From Planctomycetota bacterium (GTDB lineage Bacteria; Planctomycetota; UBA1135; GCA-002748355), in contig JAJRTL010000042.1 of NCBI GenBank assembly GCA_024278315.1, positions 1 to 43,361 on the forward strand: a stretch of DNA of 43,361 nt, given 5' to 3'. Every line of letters starts with the position of its first letter. Position 1 is the first letter of the stretch. The position numbers and the translations under genes were made by a program. This document shows positions 32,536 to 40,732 of this stretch, piece after piece. The notes beneath the pieces were generated by a model that was not told the DNA's origin, did no database searches, and worked only from the letters and a program-made list of their open reading frames with translations.

Positions 32536-33471
32536 ATGAGCTTTGGATTCCTTTCGACCCCTGTCTGGTTCTCTTCTGCGGCTGCCCTGGGCGCTTCCTT
32601 CACCTGGGCAGCCTCGAGCCTGCTCTTCGCGCGTGCCGCGAGGACGCTGGGCGCGCTCCGGGTCAACCTCCTCCGTCTCCTGATTGCGACGGTCCTCGTG
32701 CTCATCGCCCACCGGATCCTGGAGGGGCAGTTCCTCGCCACCCAGCTCGGCAGCGAAGCGATTCTCTACTTCGTGGCCTCAGGTGTCGTCGGGCTGGCAC
32801 TCGGCGACCTCTGCTACTTCCACTCCATCGCCGTGCTGGGTCCACGAAAGGGAAGCCTGCTCATGGCCACAGCTCCCATCCAGGCGGGCATCCTGGGATT
32901 CGTGATGCTCGGGGAGCACCTGTCCCTGTTGGCTTGGGGAGGCATCCTTGCGAACGTAGGCGGTGTCTGCCTGGTCCTGGCCGACCGACAGACCACGGGT
33001 GCCTGGGATGTCGAAGTCCGCCCTGCGGCCAAGAGAGTCGCCCTCGTGGCCGGGCTCTTCGGTGGTCTGGGGCAAGCGCTGGGGCTCGTGCTGGCCAAGA
33101 AGGGCCTCGACCTGTCGGCGGACGCGCATGGCAACCCCCTCAATGCCCACGCCATCCGGATGATTGCCGGGCTGCTCCCGGTGCTCGCCTGGACCCTCCT
33201 GAAAAAACGTCCCGCACCCGTTCCCCCCGCTCACAGGAAGGCGGCGATGACGGCTCTCTGCATCGGATCCTTCCTCGGGCCCAGCCTGGGCGTCTGGCTG
33301 AGTCTGGTCGCCCTGCAGAGCAAATCCACGGGTGTGGCCGCGGCCCTCCTATCCCTGGCCCCCATCATGGTCATCCCGATGGTGCGGTTCTCCCACGGAG
33401 AGAGAGTCGGGGTCTACGGAATCCTGGGCGCGCTACTGGCGACCTTCGGGACGATCCTGCTTCTCGTCTAG
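32536..33471 (+). CDS. DMT superfamily (EamA) transporter
   Basis: 10-TM pattern, two EamA repeats (ASGVVGLALGDLCYFHSIAVLGPRKGSLLMATAPI). Confidence 0.9.
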   Translation: MSFGFLSTPVWFSSAAALGASFTWAASSLLFARAARTLGALRVNLLRLLIATVLVLIAHRILEGQFLATQLGSEAILYFVASGVVGLALGDLCYFHSIAVLGPRKGSLLMATAPIQAGILGFVMLGEHLSLLAWGGILANVGGVCLVLADRQTTGAWDVEVRPAAKRVALVAGLFGGLGQALGLVLAKKGLDLSADAHGNPLNAHAIRMIAGLLPVLAWTLLKKRPAPVPPAHRKAAMTALCIGSFLGPSLGVWLSLVALQSKSTGVAAALLSLAPIMVIPMVRFSHGERVGVYGILGALLATFGTILLLV

Positions 33472-35160
33472 TCGCTGCACGCGTCGTGGATCGGCGCGGA
33501 CCCAGACTTCCTGGAGTCCCTCGGCCAGCTGGACCAACAAGCTCTGCGATCGCCCTTCACCCTCGACCTTCTTCACCTGCGCCAGCGATCCGCGAGACAG
33601 TCGGACCCAGTCTCCCCGGTGGAATCCCGCCTCTTCATCCCTCGCTGCCTGACTCTTCGTGCCGTCGGCATCGCGCGGGGCGAACTGCTCCTCTCGGTAG
33701 GAATCCCGATCCACACAGGCATCGCAATGACCACAGGGGGGCTCGGGGGCTTCGAGGTCGAACCAGCGGGAAAGCCCCACCCAACGACAACTCTCCTCAT
33801 CCTTCACGAAGCGCAGCAGCGCCAACAGGGACTGCAGATCAGCCTTCTTCTTCTCACCGGTGGCAAAGAACTCCGGCAACTCCGAGGGATCGAGATCGCT
33901 CAGGATCTCGAGATCTCCGGTATCGAGACTCCCCCGGGTGAGGCCCATCACCTCGAACCACCGAAGGCACTGGGAGACACGCTGATCGCCACGATTCTTG
34001 ACCAGGAGTTCTTCGCGGAGATCACCCAGATCCTTCGTCATTGCACGCTCGCCCCAGGACTCGAGCGTCTCGAAGACTTGCACGAGGTAGTCGAGACTTG
34101 GATTCGCCCAGTCCACGAAGTTCTGTTGGATCGCCAGATCCTCTTCCAGATAGAAGAGCTCGCACCATGCAGGCTGGCCGTCTCGCCCCGCCCTGCCGAT
34201 CTCCTGGGTCCAGGCCTCGATCGTCCGTGGGATCTGCGCGTGCAGCACGAAACGGATATCGGCCTTGTCGATCCCCATGCCAAAGGCATTCGTCGCCAAG
34301 ACGACCATGTGTTTCGTTTTCATGAAACGCTCCTGCATGGATCGTCTTTCTTCTGGTGAGAGCTTCCCGTGGTACACGAGGCTCGGGATGCCCATCCGGG
34401 CCAACTCATCGTGCAAGGCTTCGAGGTCCTTGATGAGGGCCGAATAGACGATTCCGGGCCCCTCCAAGGACCGGATGCGCTGCGCCAAGGCATGCAGCTT
34501 CTCATCCTTGTCCTGCACGATCTGGATCGTGAGGAAGAGGTTGGCACGGTCGATGCCGGTCCGCAGAATGAGCGGATCCACCAATTCGAGGTTCTGGCAG
34601 ATGTCGCGAGCGACAGTGGGTGTGGCCGTGGCCGTCAGGGCCAAGGTCGGGGGACTGCCGAGGAGTCGTCTGTAGCGTCCCAGTCTCGAATAGTCTGGTC
34701 GGAAGTCGTGTCCCCATTGACTCATGCAATGCGCCTCGTCGACAGCCAGACGGGTCACGCACAATGAGGGAAGAGCCGCCAAGAAATCGGGCCTGCGAAA
34801 TCGCTCGGGCGTCACGTAGAGCAGGTCATAGAGCCCGCGCTTCGCATCTTCGAGTCGTTGCGCCCGCTGCTTCCCCGTGAGCGAGCTGTTGATGAAGCTG
34901 GCCCGGATGCCGCGCGCGCGCAAGGCGTCGACCTGGTCCTTCATCAAGGCGATGAGAGGACTCACGACCAGGGTTATACCCTCCAGGCAGAGAGCCGGAA
35001 GCTGATAGACGAGGCTCTTGCCCGCCCCCGTGGGCCAGGTGATGAGCAGATCCCTGCCCTCCAGCACTGCCGCCACGGCTGACTCCTGCTGACCCCGCAA
35101 CTCCCGAATCCCGAAGCATTCCTCCAGGACCTCCTGCACTCTCGGCTCATCGACTCCCAT
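33433..35160 (-). CDS. recQ: ATP-dependent DNA helicase RecQ
   Basis: WPTGAGKSLVYQLPAL, VDEAHCMSQWGHDFRPDY, zinc site CRWVGL...PPCGHCDAC. Confidence 0.95.
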   Translation of the reverse strand: MGVDEPRVQEVLEECFGIRELRGQQESAVAAVLEGRDLLITWPTGAGKSLVYQLPALCLEGITLVVSPLIALMKDQVDALRARGIRASFINSSLTGKQRAQRLEDAKRGLYDLLYVTPERFRRPDFLAALPSLCVTRLAVDEAHCMSQWGHDFRPDYSRLGRYRRLLGSPPTLALTATATPTVARDICQNLELVDPLILRTGIDRANLFLTIQIVQDKDEKLHALAQRIRSLEGPGIVYSALIKDLEALHDELARMGIPSLVYHGKLSPEERRSMQERFMKTKHMVVLATNAFGMGIDKADIRFVLHAQIPRTIEAWTQEIGRAGRDGQPAWCELFYLEEDLAIQQNFVDWANPSLDYLVQVFETLESWGERAMTKDLGDLREELLVKNRGDQRVSQCLRWFEVMGLTRGSLDTGDLEILSDLDPSELPEFFATGEKKKADLQSLLALLRFVKDEESCRWVGLSRWFDLEAPEPPCGHCDACVDRDSYREEQFAPRDADGTKSQAARDEEAGFHRGDWVRLSRGSLAQVKKVEGEGRSQSLLVQLAEGLQEVWVRADPRRVQRLDEKQDRPEGRQ

Positions 35161-35422: not shown

Positions 35423-35461
35423 CGCATGGATGGGCCCACCCTCTTGGAAGGAAGACCAACG

Positions 35462-36049
35462 ATGAGCGACGATTTCCGGACCGAACCCACTCGGATGCTT
35501 AGAGATCTGAGTAAGGGACACAAGCAGGCGGCTGAAGAACTCATGCCTTTGGTCTACACCGAGTTCCAGCGGCTCGCACGCAAGCAGCTGAGCGGTGAAG
35601 GAGACGGACACACCCTGCAGCCCACAGCCCTGGTCAACGAGGTCTACCTCAAGATGATCCAGCAGGATCGCGTGGACTGGAAAGGCAAGACGCACTTCTT
35701 TGCGATCGGAGCGCAGGCCATGCGTCGCATCCTGATCGACCACGCCAGGAAGCGAAACAGGATCAAGCGCGGGGGAGATCGCGCAAGGGTCGAATTCGAT
35801 GCCGACCTGGCACTGTCACCGGGCAAGGACGAGGACCTGCTGGCCCTGGAGGATGCCTTGGAGAAACTCGAGAAACTGGATGAGCGCCAAGCGAGGATCG
35901 TCGAGCTCAGATTCTTCGGCGGCTTGACCGTAGCGGAGGTGGCCGAGGTCCTCGAAGTCAGCAAACGGACCGTGGAATCGGACTGGACCATGGTGCGCGC
36001 CTGGCTCAGGAGGGAGCTGGTGGAGGGAGAGGACGAGACGAAGCCGTGA
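35462..36049 (+). CDS. ECF sigma factor, TIGR02999/Sig70-X6-like
   Basis: GHTLQPTALVNEVYLKMI, ILIDHARKRNRIKRGG, ELRFFGGLTVAEVAEVLEVSKRTVESDWTMVRAWL. Confidence 0.93.
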   Translation: MSDDFRTEPTRMLRDLSKGHKQAAEELMPLVYTEFQRLARKQLSGEGDGHTLQPTALVNEVYLKMIQQDRVDWKGKTHFFAIGAQAMRRILIDHARKRNRIKRGGDRARVEFDADLALSPGKDEDLLALEDALEKLEKLDERQARIVELRFFGGLTVAEVAEVLEVSKRTVESDWTMVRAWLRRELVEGEDETKP

Positions 36050-38388
36050 GTCCGGAGCAGCACGCCAGGGCCAAGGAGCTCTTCGGAAAGGCCCAGGGTC
36101 TGAAACGATCCCAGGTCGAGGACTTCCTCATGGCCGAGTGCCCAGACGACGACGAAGTGCGAGCCGAGGTCATCTCCCTCCTCGAGTTCGATCATCCCGA
36201 GACCATCCTCCTGGAATCCCAGAAGGATCCCGCGAGTGAGGCCCAGGTGCCTTCGCCCCTCCCACATGCAAGCACGGTGCATCGCATGGCCGGTCGCTTT
36301 CGGCGCAAGGAGAACCGACTCAAGCTCTGGGCCGTCCTGGCCTTCCTCGGCATCGTATCCCTGGGGACGCTCACCTACAGACACGTCCTGAGCGCCACGG
36401 ATCAGATGTTGAGGAGCCAGATCGAGAGCCTCCTCAACTCCACGGTCAGTGCGCTCGAGATCCTCTTCCGCGAGGAGCGGGACAGGCTGGACAGCTGGGT
36501 GCAGATTCCGACTCTGGTGGATGCTTCCGAGGAGATCCTCAATGTAGGGAGGCAAGACAATTACTCTGAATCGGCGCTGAGCGCTTCTCCAGCACAGAAG
36601 AGGATCCACGAAATCCTGGATCCATTGGTCGGCCGAAAGGAGTATCTCGGATTCGCACTCCTCTCCCCCTCCGGGCACTTTCTAGCCGGCACGAACGACC
36701 TCTTTCGTGACCGTATCGGAAAACTCGTCAAGGAACCCGCTTCGCGTTTCCTGAGTCCGGTCCTCCAGGCTCCCAAGGGCAAGAGTGGCGCCCAGCTGGT
36801 TCGTCCCCTCCCCCCTGGGCAGGGCACGAGAGCCGGTGCTGCGGCTGCCGCTGAGCTGCTTCCATTGAACTTCTTGACCGTATGGGCGAAGCTTGCCAGA
36901 TACACTCCCGAGACCCAAGAGGAGAAGATCTTCGGTCTACTCGTCCTGCTGATCCGTCCAGAGGTGGATTTCAGTCGACTCCTGGTCGGTGCCCGAGTGG
37001 GAGAAACCGGAGAGACCTATGCCTTCGACGCGGATGGTAATCTCTTGAGCGAGAGCCGTTTCGTCGGAGACCTGGCCGCATTGGGGCTCCTTCCAGAGAG
37101 GCCCGAAGGCAAGAAGCCTACGGCCATCTTCACGGTCAAGATCCACGATCCCGGTCGGGCCTTGAGCCCCTCATCGCCTCTCGAGGAGAAGGTGGAAGGA
37201 CTGCCTCGCACCAAGATGTTGCGCCTTGCAGTGGGCAAGAAGAACGAGAAGGGCCGATCGAGCCTCGAGACCTACCGGGACTATCGCGGACAGGAGGTCG
37301 TAGGCGCCTGGATTTGGTTGAAGCGTTACGGCTTTGGACTGGCCACGGAGATCGACCAGGCCGAGGCCTTCGCCCCGGTCTTCTGGGTGCGCTGGGCCTT
37401 CCTCCTCCTGTTCGGTCTGCTCTTGGCCGCCTTGGTCTTCGTCCTGACGACTTCGTTCTCGGTCCTGCGCATGGAGAAGAATATCGACGAAGCCAAGCAG
37501 ATCGGTCCCTACGTCCTGGAGAAGAAGATCGGCGAAGGCGGCATCGGTGAGGTCTATCTTGCCAAACATGCCCTGCTGCGCCGCCCTACAGCCATCAAGC
37601 TCCTCAAGAAGCACAGCTTCAACGACGAGACCCTCAAGCGCTTCGAGGTAGAAGTGCGAGAGACCAGCCGGCTTACACATCCCAATACGGTGGAGATCTA
37701 CGACTACGGCCATACGCCCGTGGGTACCTTCTACTACGCCATGGAGTATCTGCCCGGCTTGACCATGGCCGATCTCATCAAGCAAGAGGGACCCATCGAA
37801 CCGAGGCGCGTCGTCCATCTCCTGGATCAGGCCTGTGCGTCCCTGTCGGAGGCGCATAGCAAGGGGCTGATCCACCGGGACATCAAGCCCCAGAACATCA
37901 TGCTCTGCGAACGCGGTGGGATCTATGACACGGTCAAGGTCCTGGATTTCGGTCTGGTCAAGAACGTGGATGCCTCCCAGGACGTCCAGCACACGGCTCC
38001 CGACCAGCTCGGTGGGACCCCGATGTACATTGCTCCTGAACGCATCAGGGACCCGAGCCAGAACAGCGCACTGACCGACCTCTACGCAGTCGGCACGGTG
38101 GCCTTCAATCTGCTCACGGGTCGCAATCCCTTCGACGCCGGAACCAGCGTCGAAATCGTCTATCAGGTCATGCAGAAGGAAGCGCCGATGGTCAACGACA
38201 TCGCGGGCATCCAGGTGCCCGATGCCCTCAATCGACTCGTGGCCAGTCTCATGTCCAAGCTCCCCGAAGATCGCCCCCAGAGTGCGGATCAGCTACGGCT
38301 GGACCTCGCAGCCCTGGATCTACCAGCCTGGACCTTCGAGGACGCACGAGCCTGGTGGCAGAAACACGAGGCGGCTAGCAGCTCGTAG
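36046..38388 (+). CDS. Transmembrane Ser/Thr protein kinase with N-terminal extracytoplasmic dCache-like sensor
   Basis: GTG start in GTGA overlap; TM, GETGETYAFDADGNLLSESRF and YRDYRGQEVVGAWIWL Cache motifs, TM, kinase IGEGGIGEVYLAKH...HRDIKPQNIM...LDFGLVKN...GTPMYIAPE. Confidence 0.93.
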   Translation: MSPEQHARAKELFGKAQGLKRSQVEDFLMAECPDDDEVRAEVISLLEFDHPETILLESQKDPASEAQVPSPLPHASTVHRMAGRFRRKENRLKLWAVLAFLGIVSLGTLTYRHVLSATDQMLRSQIESLLNSTVSALEILFREERDRLDSWVQIPTLVDASEEILNVGRQDNYSESALSASPAQKRIHEILDPLVGRKEYLGFALLSPSGHFLAGTNDLFRDRIGKLVKEPASRFLSPVLQAPKGKSGAQLVRPLPPGQGTRAGAAAAAELLPLNFLTVWAKLARYTPETQEEKIFGLLVLLIRPEVDFSRLLVGARVGETGETYAFDADGNLLSESRFVGDLAALGLLPERPEGKKPTAIFTVKIHDPGRALSPSSPLEEKVEGLPRTKMLRLAVGKKNEKGRSSLETYRDYRGQEVVGAWIWLKRYGFGLATEIDQAEAFAPVFWVRWAFLLLFGLLLAALVFVLTTSFSVLRMEKNIDEAKQIGPYVLEKKIGEGGIGEVYLAKHALLRRPTAIKLLKKHSFNDETLKRFEVEVRETSRLTHPNTVEIYDYGHTPVGTFYYAMEYLPGLTMADLIKQEGPIEPRRVVHLLDQACASLSEAHSKGLIHRDIKPQNIMLCERGGIYDTVKVLDFGLVKNVDASQDVQHTAPDQLGGTPMYIAPERIRDPSQNSALTDLYAVGTVAFNLLTGRNPFDAGTSVEIVYQVMQKEAPMVNDIAGIQVPDALNRLVASLMSKLPEDRPQSADQLRLDLAALDLPAWTFEDARAWWQKHEAASSS

Positions 38389-38401: not shown

Positions 38402-40732
38402 TCAATCGAAGCCGATCTGGCGGCTGACCTTCTTGGCGTACTCGGTGATCTTGTCGCGAGGCATCAAATGCAGCTGCGCATAGAGGTTCGAGTCGGGCCG
38501 ACGCGCACCCGGTGCGCCCTCCTGATCCCAGAGTTCGACCATGCGTCGCAGGACCTCCTGGAAACCCTGGCTGTGCGGGCCGCTGCGGGGACCGCCGGGG
38601 TCGGGAAGGAAACTCGTCAGATGTGCGAGACCGAGCCTCGGGTTGGCGCCATGGGCGATGGCCGCGCACTCGGCGCGACCTTCGGCCTGGGCGAGGATGT
38701 CGCTGGCCGAGAACCCTCCCCGCAGGGCCATGCCAATGGCAGGGAAGGGGTGGTTCATGACCGGGAGCATGCGATGTGCTTCGACGAGATGGGCACGTTC
38801 GTGACGGCGTAGCAGGCCGAACACCTGTCGCCAGAGCTCCTCATGGTCCCCCTTCACCTCGGCAACGGCCATGGCCGTGATCTTGCGATCCACCTGGCAG
38901 GGCCTCGAAGGTGACAGGGCGGGGACATCCGGTGCCGACTCGTCCAGGATGTCCGCGAGACCTTCCTTGGCCATTGTCTCACTGCTGTCCAGCAAATCCC
39001 GCCACCAGGCTCGGACCATCTGCAGATCGAGAAGGTAGTGGTGCCAAAGTGCGACACCAGCAGGGTCCATCATCCCACCTTCTTCCAGGTTCGTGAACCG
39101 CTTGTTCTCGACCAGGATCTCCCGGCATTCCCATTTCAGGGGCAGAGAAGCGGAGCGGCGCAGTCGCGTTTCACCCAACTTCCGGGCAATCAGGAACTGG
39201 ACACCTTTTCCCAGCCCTTGTCCCACGATGAAGTATCGGTTGTAGCGCGCAAAGAAGCTCGGAAGACCGGGACCGATGGGATCCATGAAGGAGAGCCCCA
39301 GCACGGGAAACTGATGGATCCTCGGTTCCCCCACCCGGTCCTGGCCAAAGATCTCCACCGACACCTTGCGGGCCTCGGTCAAGAAGCGCTGCAGATCCCA
39401 GTCCTTGATTTCAGGTCTGCGCAACAACTCCACGAGCTCGGCTTCGAACCGCAGGAAGCGAGCCCCTGCATCCAGGATGTGCTGGAGTGCGGCAGCCCCG
39501 TGGTAGGTCCGGGAATAGAACCGCCCCAGCACCTGGGCTTCATCCACCCATCCCGCATCCTGCAGGATACGGAGACTCGCGACACAGTCCTCCACCTTGG
39601 TAGGACATCCCTTCTGTCCACGGAGTGGACCATCCAGGAGAGCGGACATGCGCTTGGCCTCGAGGTTGTCCCAGCCCTTGCGTACGAAGGCAGGGAGCGA
39701 GGCTTCGTAGACATCGATCGCATCTCCCAAACGCCCTTGATCCAGCATGAGGAGAATCAGGACTTCGCGGCTGGTCATGAGATGGCCAGCTCGCAGGACC
39801 GAGTCCGTCGACCGGGGCGACCGCGCCGCTTCGCTGAGCCACTCCTCGGCCAGGTGGACGCGCCCCTCTGCCAGGGCCAGCTCGGCCATGACGAGACTGC
39901 CACCTGACTCGAGGAGGATGGACTCCAGGAGAGGATGGGCTTCGATGTGACGCAGCACGGCGCGCCGGTGCTTGCTGGTGCTTGCGGAGGCGAGCACCGA
40001 CAGAAGCCCCAGCTGCTTCGGTCCCCGGTCCATCGTGTGGATGAGATCCCGCAGACGCCCACTGCCCTGCTGGTAGAGCAGCAGGGACAGGATCGCACTC
40101 TCCGGGTGCTTTTCTGCATCCTTGCGGAGAGCGGGAACCGCCTTCTTGGCTTCGGCAGGCGAAGAGAGGGACTGGAAGTAGAGCACCCAGGTCTGAGGCC
40201 AGGACTTGGAGCTCTTGAGCAGGCGGCGGAGCACCTCCCGGGCCCAGGCCTTTTGACCGGGGTCCGTCGAGAAGCTGCGACACCAGGCCAGGCCATAGAG
40301 GATCCAATAGGAATCGGGATAGTGGCGGTAGGCCTCGTTCAGCGATTCCACCTTCTCCTCGAAGTTGGAGAGCAGCCTCGTGGCCAGATACACGGGCTCC
40401 GGATCATCGGGAAAGCGCTCTCGCAGCTCCTCTGCCTCCTGCCAGACCCGGGCCATGCGGCCCCGTTCGCGCAGATAGTCCTGATGCAATCTCCAGGCCG
40501 GCACGAAGAGAGGCTCCTGTGCGATCAAGCGACGAACGATCTCCTCGGCCTCTTCGTCCATGCCCTGACCACGGAGGAACTCCGCCTTGAGGGCGGACCG
40601 GTAGAGAGGTTTCCATCGGTGCTCGACATCCAGACGGAGCGAGGGGGTGGGCACCCAGGCCTGGCTGCTCGTGCCGGAATGGCAAGCAGAGGCAACGAAC
40701 AGGAACAGAACGAATTGTGGGCAGGATCTCAT
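38402..40732 (-). CDS. Large TPR-like lipoprotein with HERAH (HExxH) motif
   Basis: Lipobox VASAC; TPR-like helices; HERAHLVEAH...GRAECAA. Confidence 0.7.
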   Translation of the reverse strand: MRSCPQFVLFLFVASACHSGTSSQAWVPTPSLRLDVEHRWKPLYRSALKAEFLRGQGMDEEAEEIVRRLIAQEPLFVPAWRLHQDYLRERGRMARVWQEAEELRERFPDDPEPVYLATRLLSNFEEKVESLNEAYRHYPDSYWILYGLAWCRSFSTDPGQKAWAREVLRRLLKSSKSWPQTWVLYFQSLSSPAEAKKAVPALRKDAEKHPESAILSLLLYQQGSGRLRDLIHTMDRGPKQLGLLSVLASASTSKHRRAVLRHIEAHPLLESILLESGGSLVMAELALAEGRVHLAEEWLSEAARSPRSTDSVLRAGHLMTSREVLILLMLDQGRLGDAIDVYEASLPAFVRKGWDNLEAKRMSALLDGPLRGQKGCPTKVEDCVASLRILQDAGWVDEAQVLGRFYSRTYHGAAALQHILDAGARFLRFEAELVELLRRPEIKDWDLQRFLTEARKVSVEIFGQDRVGEPRIHQFPVLGLSFMDPIGPGLPSFFARYNRYFIVGQGLGKGVQFLIARKLGETRLRRSASLPLKWECREILVENKRFTNLEEGGMMDPAGVALWHHYLLDLQMVRAWWRDLLDSSETMAKEGLADILDESAPDVPALSPSRPCQVDRKITAMAVAEVKGDHEELWRQVFGLLRRHERAHLVEAHRMLPVMNHPFPAIGMALRGGFSASDILAQAEGRAECAAIAHGANPRLGLAHLTSFLPDPGGPRSGPHSQGFQEVLRRMVELWDQEGAPGARRPDSNLYAQLHLMPRDKITEYAKKVSRQIGFD

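Follow-up and report, generated by a model that had tools for sequence, protein, structure and literature searches.

A planctomycetal ECF sigma factor paired with a dCache receptor kinase whose N-terminal tail is a predicted sigma-docking domain

ECF sigma factors bind RNA polymerase (beta' clamp) through an acidic DAED motif. In two members of group ECF43, EcfP of Vibrio parahaemolyticus and EcfK of Xanthomonas citri, other residues take the place of this region 2.2 motif, and a Thr among them is phosphorylated by the neighbouring kinase, which restores the negative charge for RNA polymerase binding (PMC8999054, PMC13147305). EcfP is activated by Thr phosphorylation by its neighbour PknT (PMC8999054), and PknS is the kinase that phosphorylates EcfK (PMC13147305). 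Other kinase-linked ECF groups retain acidic residues at the DAED position (PMC8999054). An EcfK T51A variant remains functional (PMC13147305), so the region 2.2 Thr need not be the sole switch. PknS also possesses an 83-residue N-terminal segment, conserved in Xanthomonadaceae and possibly functional, for which three to four helices are predicted and which is invisible in the crystal (PMC13147305). Ser/Thr receptor kinases with a dCache domain have been noted in Cache surveys (PMC4822843, PMC9540692). As for class I anti-sigma domains, their helices 1 and 3 lie on the last sigma4 helix and their fourth helix on sigma2 (PMC7406223).

The window, i.e. the whole stretch of DNA that was analysed (43,361 nucleotides, contig JAJRTL010000042.1 of the Planctomycetota assembly GCA_024278315.1), encodes a sigma-kinase pair that is probably of the EcfP/PknT and EcfK/PknS kind. 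As the original prediction had it, an ECF sigma factor gene overlaps a Ser/Thr kinase gene by GTGA; the kinase is intact, and both genes are matched by profiles. Their features are as follows:
35462..36049, forward strand: ECF sigma factor of the TIGR02999 (Sig-70_X6) / PF07638 type, 195 aa (profile matches)
35618..35629, forward strand: QPTA (residues 53-56) in place of the region 2.2 DAED (alignment, literature)
35624-35626, forward strand: Thr55, predicted phosphosite (aligns with the EcfP/EcfK phosphosite)
35831..36031, forward strand: sigma region 4, with predicted tail-contact residues D140, Q143, T176 and R184 (charge co-variation)
36046..36049, forward strand: GTGA overlap of the kinase GTG start and the sigma TGA stop (sequence)
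36046..38388, forward strand: receptor Ser/Thr kinase, 780 aa (open reading frame, profile matches)
36046..36210, forward strand: three-helix tail domain, residues 1-55 (profiles A2/A5, AlphaFold2, PknS match)
36319..36375, forward strand: transmembrane segment 1, residues ~92-110 (hydropathy)
36376..37365, forward strand: extracytoplasmic dCache-like sensor, residues ~111-440, about 330 residues (homologue profiles, AlphaFold2)
37366..37473, forward strand: transmembrane segment 2, residues ~441-476 (hydropathy)
37510..38286, forward strand: Hanks-type kinase domain, residues 489-747 (Pkinase match, motifs, structure match to PknB)

The sigma gene starts at the ATG at 35462, preceded by a good Shine-Dalgarno sequence (GGAAGGAAG, 35446-35454), and stops with the TGA at 36047-36049; an alternative in-frame ATG at 35426 has no Shine-Dalgarno sequence. 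A consensus sigma-70 promoter was sought 5' of the pair and was not found. The pair is flanked on the opposite strand by genes that encode, according to their translations, a RecQ-type helicase (33433-35160) and a TPR-like protein (38402-40732). The claim that no anti-sigma factor is visible stands as far as genes are concerned, as no separate anti-sigma gene adjoins the pair among the neighbours read from their translations, but it overlooked a conserved sigma-linked domain in the kinase tail. Full-length relatives of the kinase are found in several phyla, and those accompanied by the same sigma type occur in Planctomycetota and Acidobacteriota genomes. The arrangement is therefore not due to chance, and the expected conservation of the pair is borne out.

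The sigma factor belongs to PF07638 (E 2.7e-60, 203.9 bits, cut-off 21.1) and to TIGR02999 (E 5e-65, 218.8 bits, curated cut-off 126.15). At the place of its QPTA motif, the canonical ECF sigma factors aligned from its own genome read TAED, AVED and DLDD. The absence of DAED is shared with EcfP (STTA), and the position of the Thr, third in the motif, is shared with EcfK (QATE). An uncharged DAED replacement that includes a Thr, an adjacent STPK and no adjacent anti-sigma gene, which characterize ECF43, are all found in the window; the family resembles ECF43 in being devoid of acidic residues at this site, a likeness of motif and gene context. A conserved Ser/Thr in sigma region 2 was also anticipated, and Thr indeed occupies the position of Thr55 in 149 of the 151 readable relatives and in 168 of the 171 sigma factors paired with a tail-bearing kinase. 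Since QPTA takes the place of the acidic DAED that contacts the beta' clamp, the window sigma factor would be off by default until Thr55 is phosphorylated. The phospho-switch reading of the pair is well supported by these alignments: the part of the original prediction that concerned a kinase-controlled sigma switch gains support from the loss of DAED and the conserved Thr, in a pair that is itself conserved, while its treatment of the kinase tail as featureless is not. What counts against this explanation is that no kinase was recognised alongside 40 of the 155 sigma factors of the family. The source genome is a draft; searched by profile, it contains three more close sigma factors of the TIGR02999 type, and classical kinases adjoin two of them. 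A second TIGR02999-type sigma factor with QPTA in the same genome (L002:1498-2094; G000:C319:3922-4461) has no kinase recognised within its 3.5 kb locus and could rely on a kinase encoded elsewhere.

The order predicted for the kinase (cytosolic tail, transmembrane segment, dCache, transmembrane segment, C-terminal kinase) agrees with hydropathy, profiles and AlphaFold2. In brief, (i) residues 489-747 match Pkinase (E 5e-46), the catalytic motifs GEGGIGEV, AIKLL, HRDIKPQN, DFG and APE are intact, and the model of this domain matches the structure of PknB, with Foldseek returning kinases only; (ii) the region between the transmembrane segments scores below the Pfam cut-off for dCache_1 in the window protein itself (E 5e-4, 20-23 versus 45 bits), which is thus not a member by that profile, but dCache_1 is matched by 10 of 13 homologues (best 4e-13); and (iii) the AlphaFold2 model of the TM-Cache-TM-kinase part (mean pLDDT 82) has a double PAS-like fold between the two transmembrane segments. 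Outside the membrane lies a divergent dCache, for which no useful match was found among PDB sequences. This protein and the dCache Ser/Thr receptor kinases of the surveys have in common that an extracytoplasmic dCache is linked to an STK output, although the members of the family collected here are mostly devoid of tail and sigma factor, so that sigma coupling concerns a subset. The neighbouring kinase of EcfK is likewise an adjacent transmembrane Hanks kinase, but PknS is built as tail-kinase-TM-periplasmic TPR whereas the window kinase is tail-TM-dCache-TM-kinase; PknT also differs from it in sensor and layout.

The first residues of the kinase form a domain of their own. AlphaFold2 predicts a compact three-helix bundle (helices 3-16, 21-31 and 36-49, pLDDT ~93), with pLDDT falling beyond residue 49 and no confident fourth helix. 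This domain is present in neither Pfam nor NCBIfam, a Foldseek search returned nothing significant, and comparison with known anti-sigma domains (Pfam, NCBIfam, Foldseek) revealed no resemblance in sequence or fold. In the PDB, its profile identifies a single convincing chain, 9EED_A, which is PknS (residues 6-57, E 1.6e-11). The match lies ahead of the PknS kinase domain, and PknS thus shares the N-terminal three-helix domain of the window kinase. A candidate stand-alone tail protein (L120) was rejected, as the contig ends there. Natural sigma-tail fusions, sought for a one-chain model of the complex, were rejected as well; the long upstream frames are GC-rich open frames.

The tail also heads classical tail-kinase-TM proteins and is found in 113 of the 154 genomes of the window's order, with up to 40 copies per genome in this order and 42 in genome G345. 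Of the 216 distinct kinases that carry a tail, 178 lie next to a TIGR02999-type sigma factor gene, which is upstream in the same orientation in 166 cases and divergent in 12; 34 tail kinases have no sigma gene nearby, which counts against a general link. Among the 66 distinct members of the dCache-kinase family, the tail is present in 11, all of which have a sigma gene in the locus, directly upstream or overlapping in 10 of them. None of the 55 tail-less members has one, and for 52 of these the available upstream sequence spans at least 800 bp. This 11-versus-55 count represents far fewer independent events, because many rows are close relatives and about four changes on the tree suffice to explain the trait. 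Two additional tail-bearing dCache members, L243 and L245, are also accompanied by a sigma gene. As a module, the tail goes with the sigma factor and not with the kinase layout: it lies ahead of the kinase domain in the classical tail-kinase-TM proteins and ahead of the sensor in the receptor-like layout.

Some loci of the family deserve mention. At L176 / L247, a tail-bearing dCache kinase has its sigma gene ~1 kb downstream and not upstream. At L243:1519-3817, tail and dCache share a frame that adjoins a sigma gene, and the kinase domain continues in another frame, owing to a frameshift or an assembly error. A widespread family of dCache Ser/Thr receptor kinases that lack the tail and have no nearby sigma gene is encoded in Planctomycetota, Myxococcota, Gemmatimonadota and beta/gammaproteobacterial MAGs (L027, L029-L034, L036-L040, L042-L043, L045, L047 and others).

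The tail and the sigma factor vary together in charge. Across 174 sigma-kinase pairs from 75 genomes, three combinations of alignment positions (sigma/tail) carry opposite charges: R167-E35 (r=-0.62), Q126-K4 (-0.60) and R159-D43 (-0.53); the most extreme r in 2000 re-pairings was -0.41. All three sigma positions fall within region 4, and their partners lie on helices 1 and 3 of the tail. The equivalents in the window are R184-E41, Q143/D140-K10 and T176-D49, and the predicted sigma-contact residues of the window tail are K10, E41, S44 and D49. The same correlations are seen when the 54 pairs of the window's order and the 120 pairs from elsewhere are taken separately, in the 12 divergent pairs, with one pair per genome (75) and with the richest genome left out. 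Specificity was assessed by leaving one genome out at a time: with positions learned on the other genomes and tested within each genome with at least three pairs, cognate sigma-tail partners scored 108, against 61 +/- 6 for random within-genome partners (z=8.1), and four re-pairing controls, including same-charge, sigma-kinase-domain and tail-kinase-domain ones, gave z magnitudes of ~1. These statistics support both a contact of the tail with region 4 of the sigma factor and the specificity of that contact for the cognate pair. Because the tail follows the sigma factor and co-varies with region 4, the kinase most likely binds its own sigma factor directly, through tail and region 4; the tail may also hold the sigma factor inactive.

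Taken together, we regard it as probable that the window encodes a kinase-activated ECF system of the EcfP/PknT-EcfK/PknS kind, in which a dCache receptor serves as the kinase and its tail docks on region 4. The sigma factor, with QPTA instead of DAED in its sequence, would by analogy with EcfP be made inactive. Tail helices 1 and 3 would then bind sigma region 4 and keep the cognate sigma factor tethered to the membrane, close to the kinase domain. To judge from the architecture, a ligand of the dCache sensor would activate the C-terminal kinase domain through transmembrane segment 2. As in EcfP and EcfK, the kinase would then phosphorylate Thr55 and supply the missing negative charge, and the sigma factor would bind RNA polymerase and leave. 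With the sigma factor held by region 4, its region 2.2 would stay accessible to the kinase, which agrees with a phospho-switch in that region. The dock would present the sigma factor to its own kinase and perhaps hold it inactive.

What the dock does beyond this presentation can be read in two ways. The tail could be a substrate-docking motif only, one that raises the local sigma concentration for phosphorylation with no inhibition, a reading to which we give slightly less than an even chance. It agrees with a sigma factor predicted to be inactive alone (QPTA), and, with up to 42 tail kinases in one genome, cross-talk would be avoided by a specific dock, which fits the pairing specificity observed within genomes; however, since region 4 is the DNA-binding surface, docking there should also hinder function sterically. 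The tail could instead be a built-in anti-sigma domain: once docked on region 4, it would block contacts with the promoter -35 element or the beta flap and sequester the sigma factor until phosphorylation releases it, the kinase being both brake and activator. Like the class I domains (RseA, RskA, RsiW, ChrR), the tail is a small helical bundle, and its co-variation maps to helices 1/3 and sigma4: its predicted contacts lie on the last sigma4 helix and on helix 4.1, where class I domains bind with their helices 1/3, and membrane tethering would sequester the sigma factor. On the other hand, the tail is fused to a kinase, resembles no known anti-sigma domain in sequence or fold and, given the drop in pLDDT after residue 49, has no predicted fourth helix for sigma2; moreover, a brake seems unnecessary for a sigma factor that already has no acidic motif. 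This reading appears rather unlikely. Its extension, that the tail is an ECF anti-sigma domain of a novel class, borne by the sigma factor's own activating kinase and holding region 4 only, with region 2 exposed, is doubtful too. If it were true, a single receptor would sequester its sigma factor and then free it by phosphorylating region 2.2, a device that ECFs paired with kinases would share in Planctomycetota, Acidobacteriota and Xanthomonas.

It is improbable that the co-variation reflects joint inheritance of the gene pairs and not contact, an explanation already largely refuted. Pairs do duplicate and move together, and raw mutual information, significant for sigma-tail, is also high for the sigma-kinase-domain control, owing to clade effects; as this control was significant too, raw mutual information was not used as evidence of contact. 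A distance-based mirror-tree comparison gave no signal (r=0.04), with saturated distances, which is a point against the proposed docking. Only the charge-complementarity tests separate the tail from the kinase domain. Indeed, their signal is one-sided, in that only opposite charges are associated (the distribution of sigma-tail r ends at +0.27 on the positive side), it is limited to region 4 and helices 1/3, the kinase domain encoded by these very genes does not show it (r never below -0.33 for sigma columns against 81 charged kinase-domain columns), and it survives the use of one pair per genome. Least probable is mere co-transcription of a kinase that has other targets and a sigma factor regulated transcriptionally, which would suit the fact that most dCache kinases of the family have no adjacent sigma gene (the 52 of 55 tail-less loci with sufficient upstream DNA) but leaves aside that exactly the sigma-bearing members carry the tail, that the charge co-variation is specific and that the phospho-acceptor Thr is conserved.

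Neither ECF sigma factors activated by kinases nor dCache receptor kinases are new as kinds; their combination in one conserved receptor layout is. Also new is the evidence, drawn from sequence comparison, that the N-terminal kinase segment appears to be a specific sigma-docking domain; searches of the open-access literature turned up no report of such a function. Docking by the tail would account for the PknS segment that crystallography does not see. It also addresses the separation of signals in bacteria with dozens of paralogous kinase-sigma pairs, to which the tail and its mapped charge pairs offer a concrete and testable answer that names the residues for rewiring. The dCache version constitutes a natural experiment, with the kinase domain beyond the sensor and the tail still with the sigma gene. 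The genomes G345 (L332-L361) and G053, with ~40 tail-bearing kinases each, are suited to tests of pairing specificity among paralogues.
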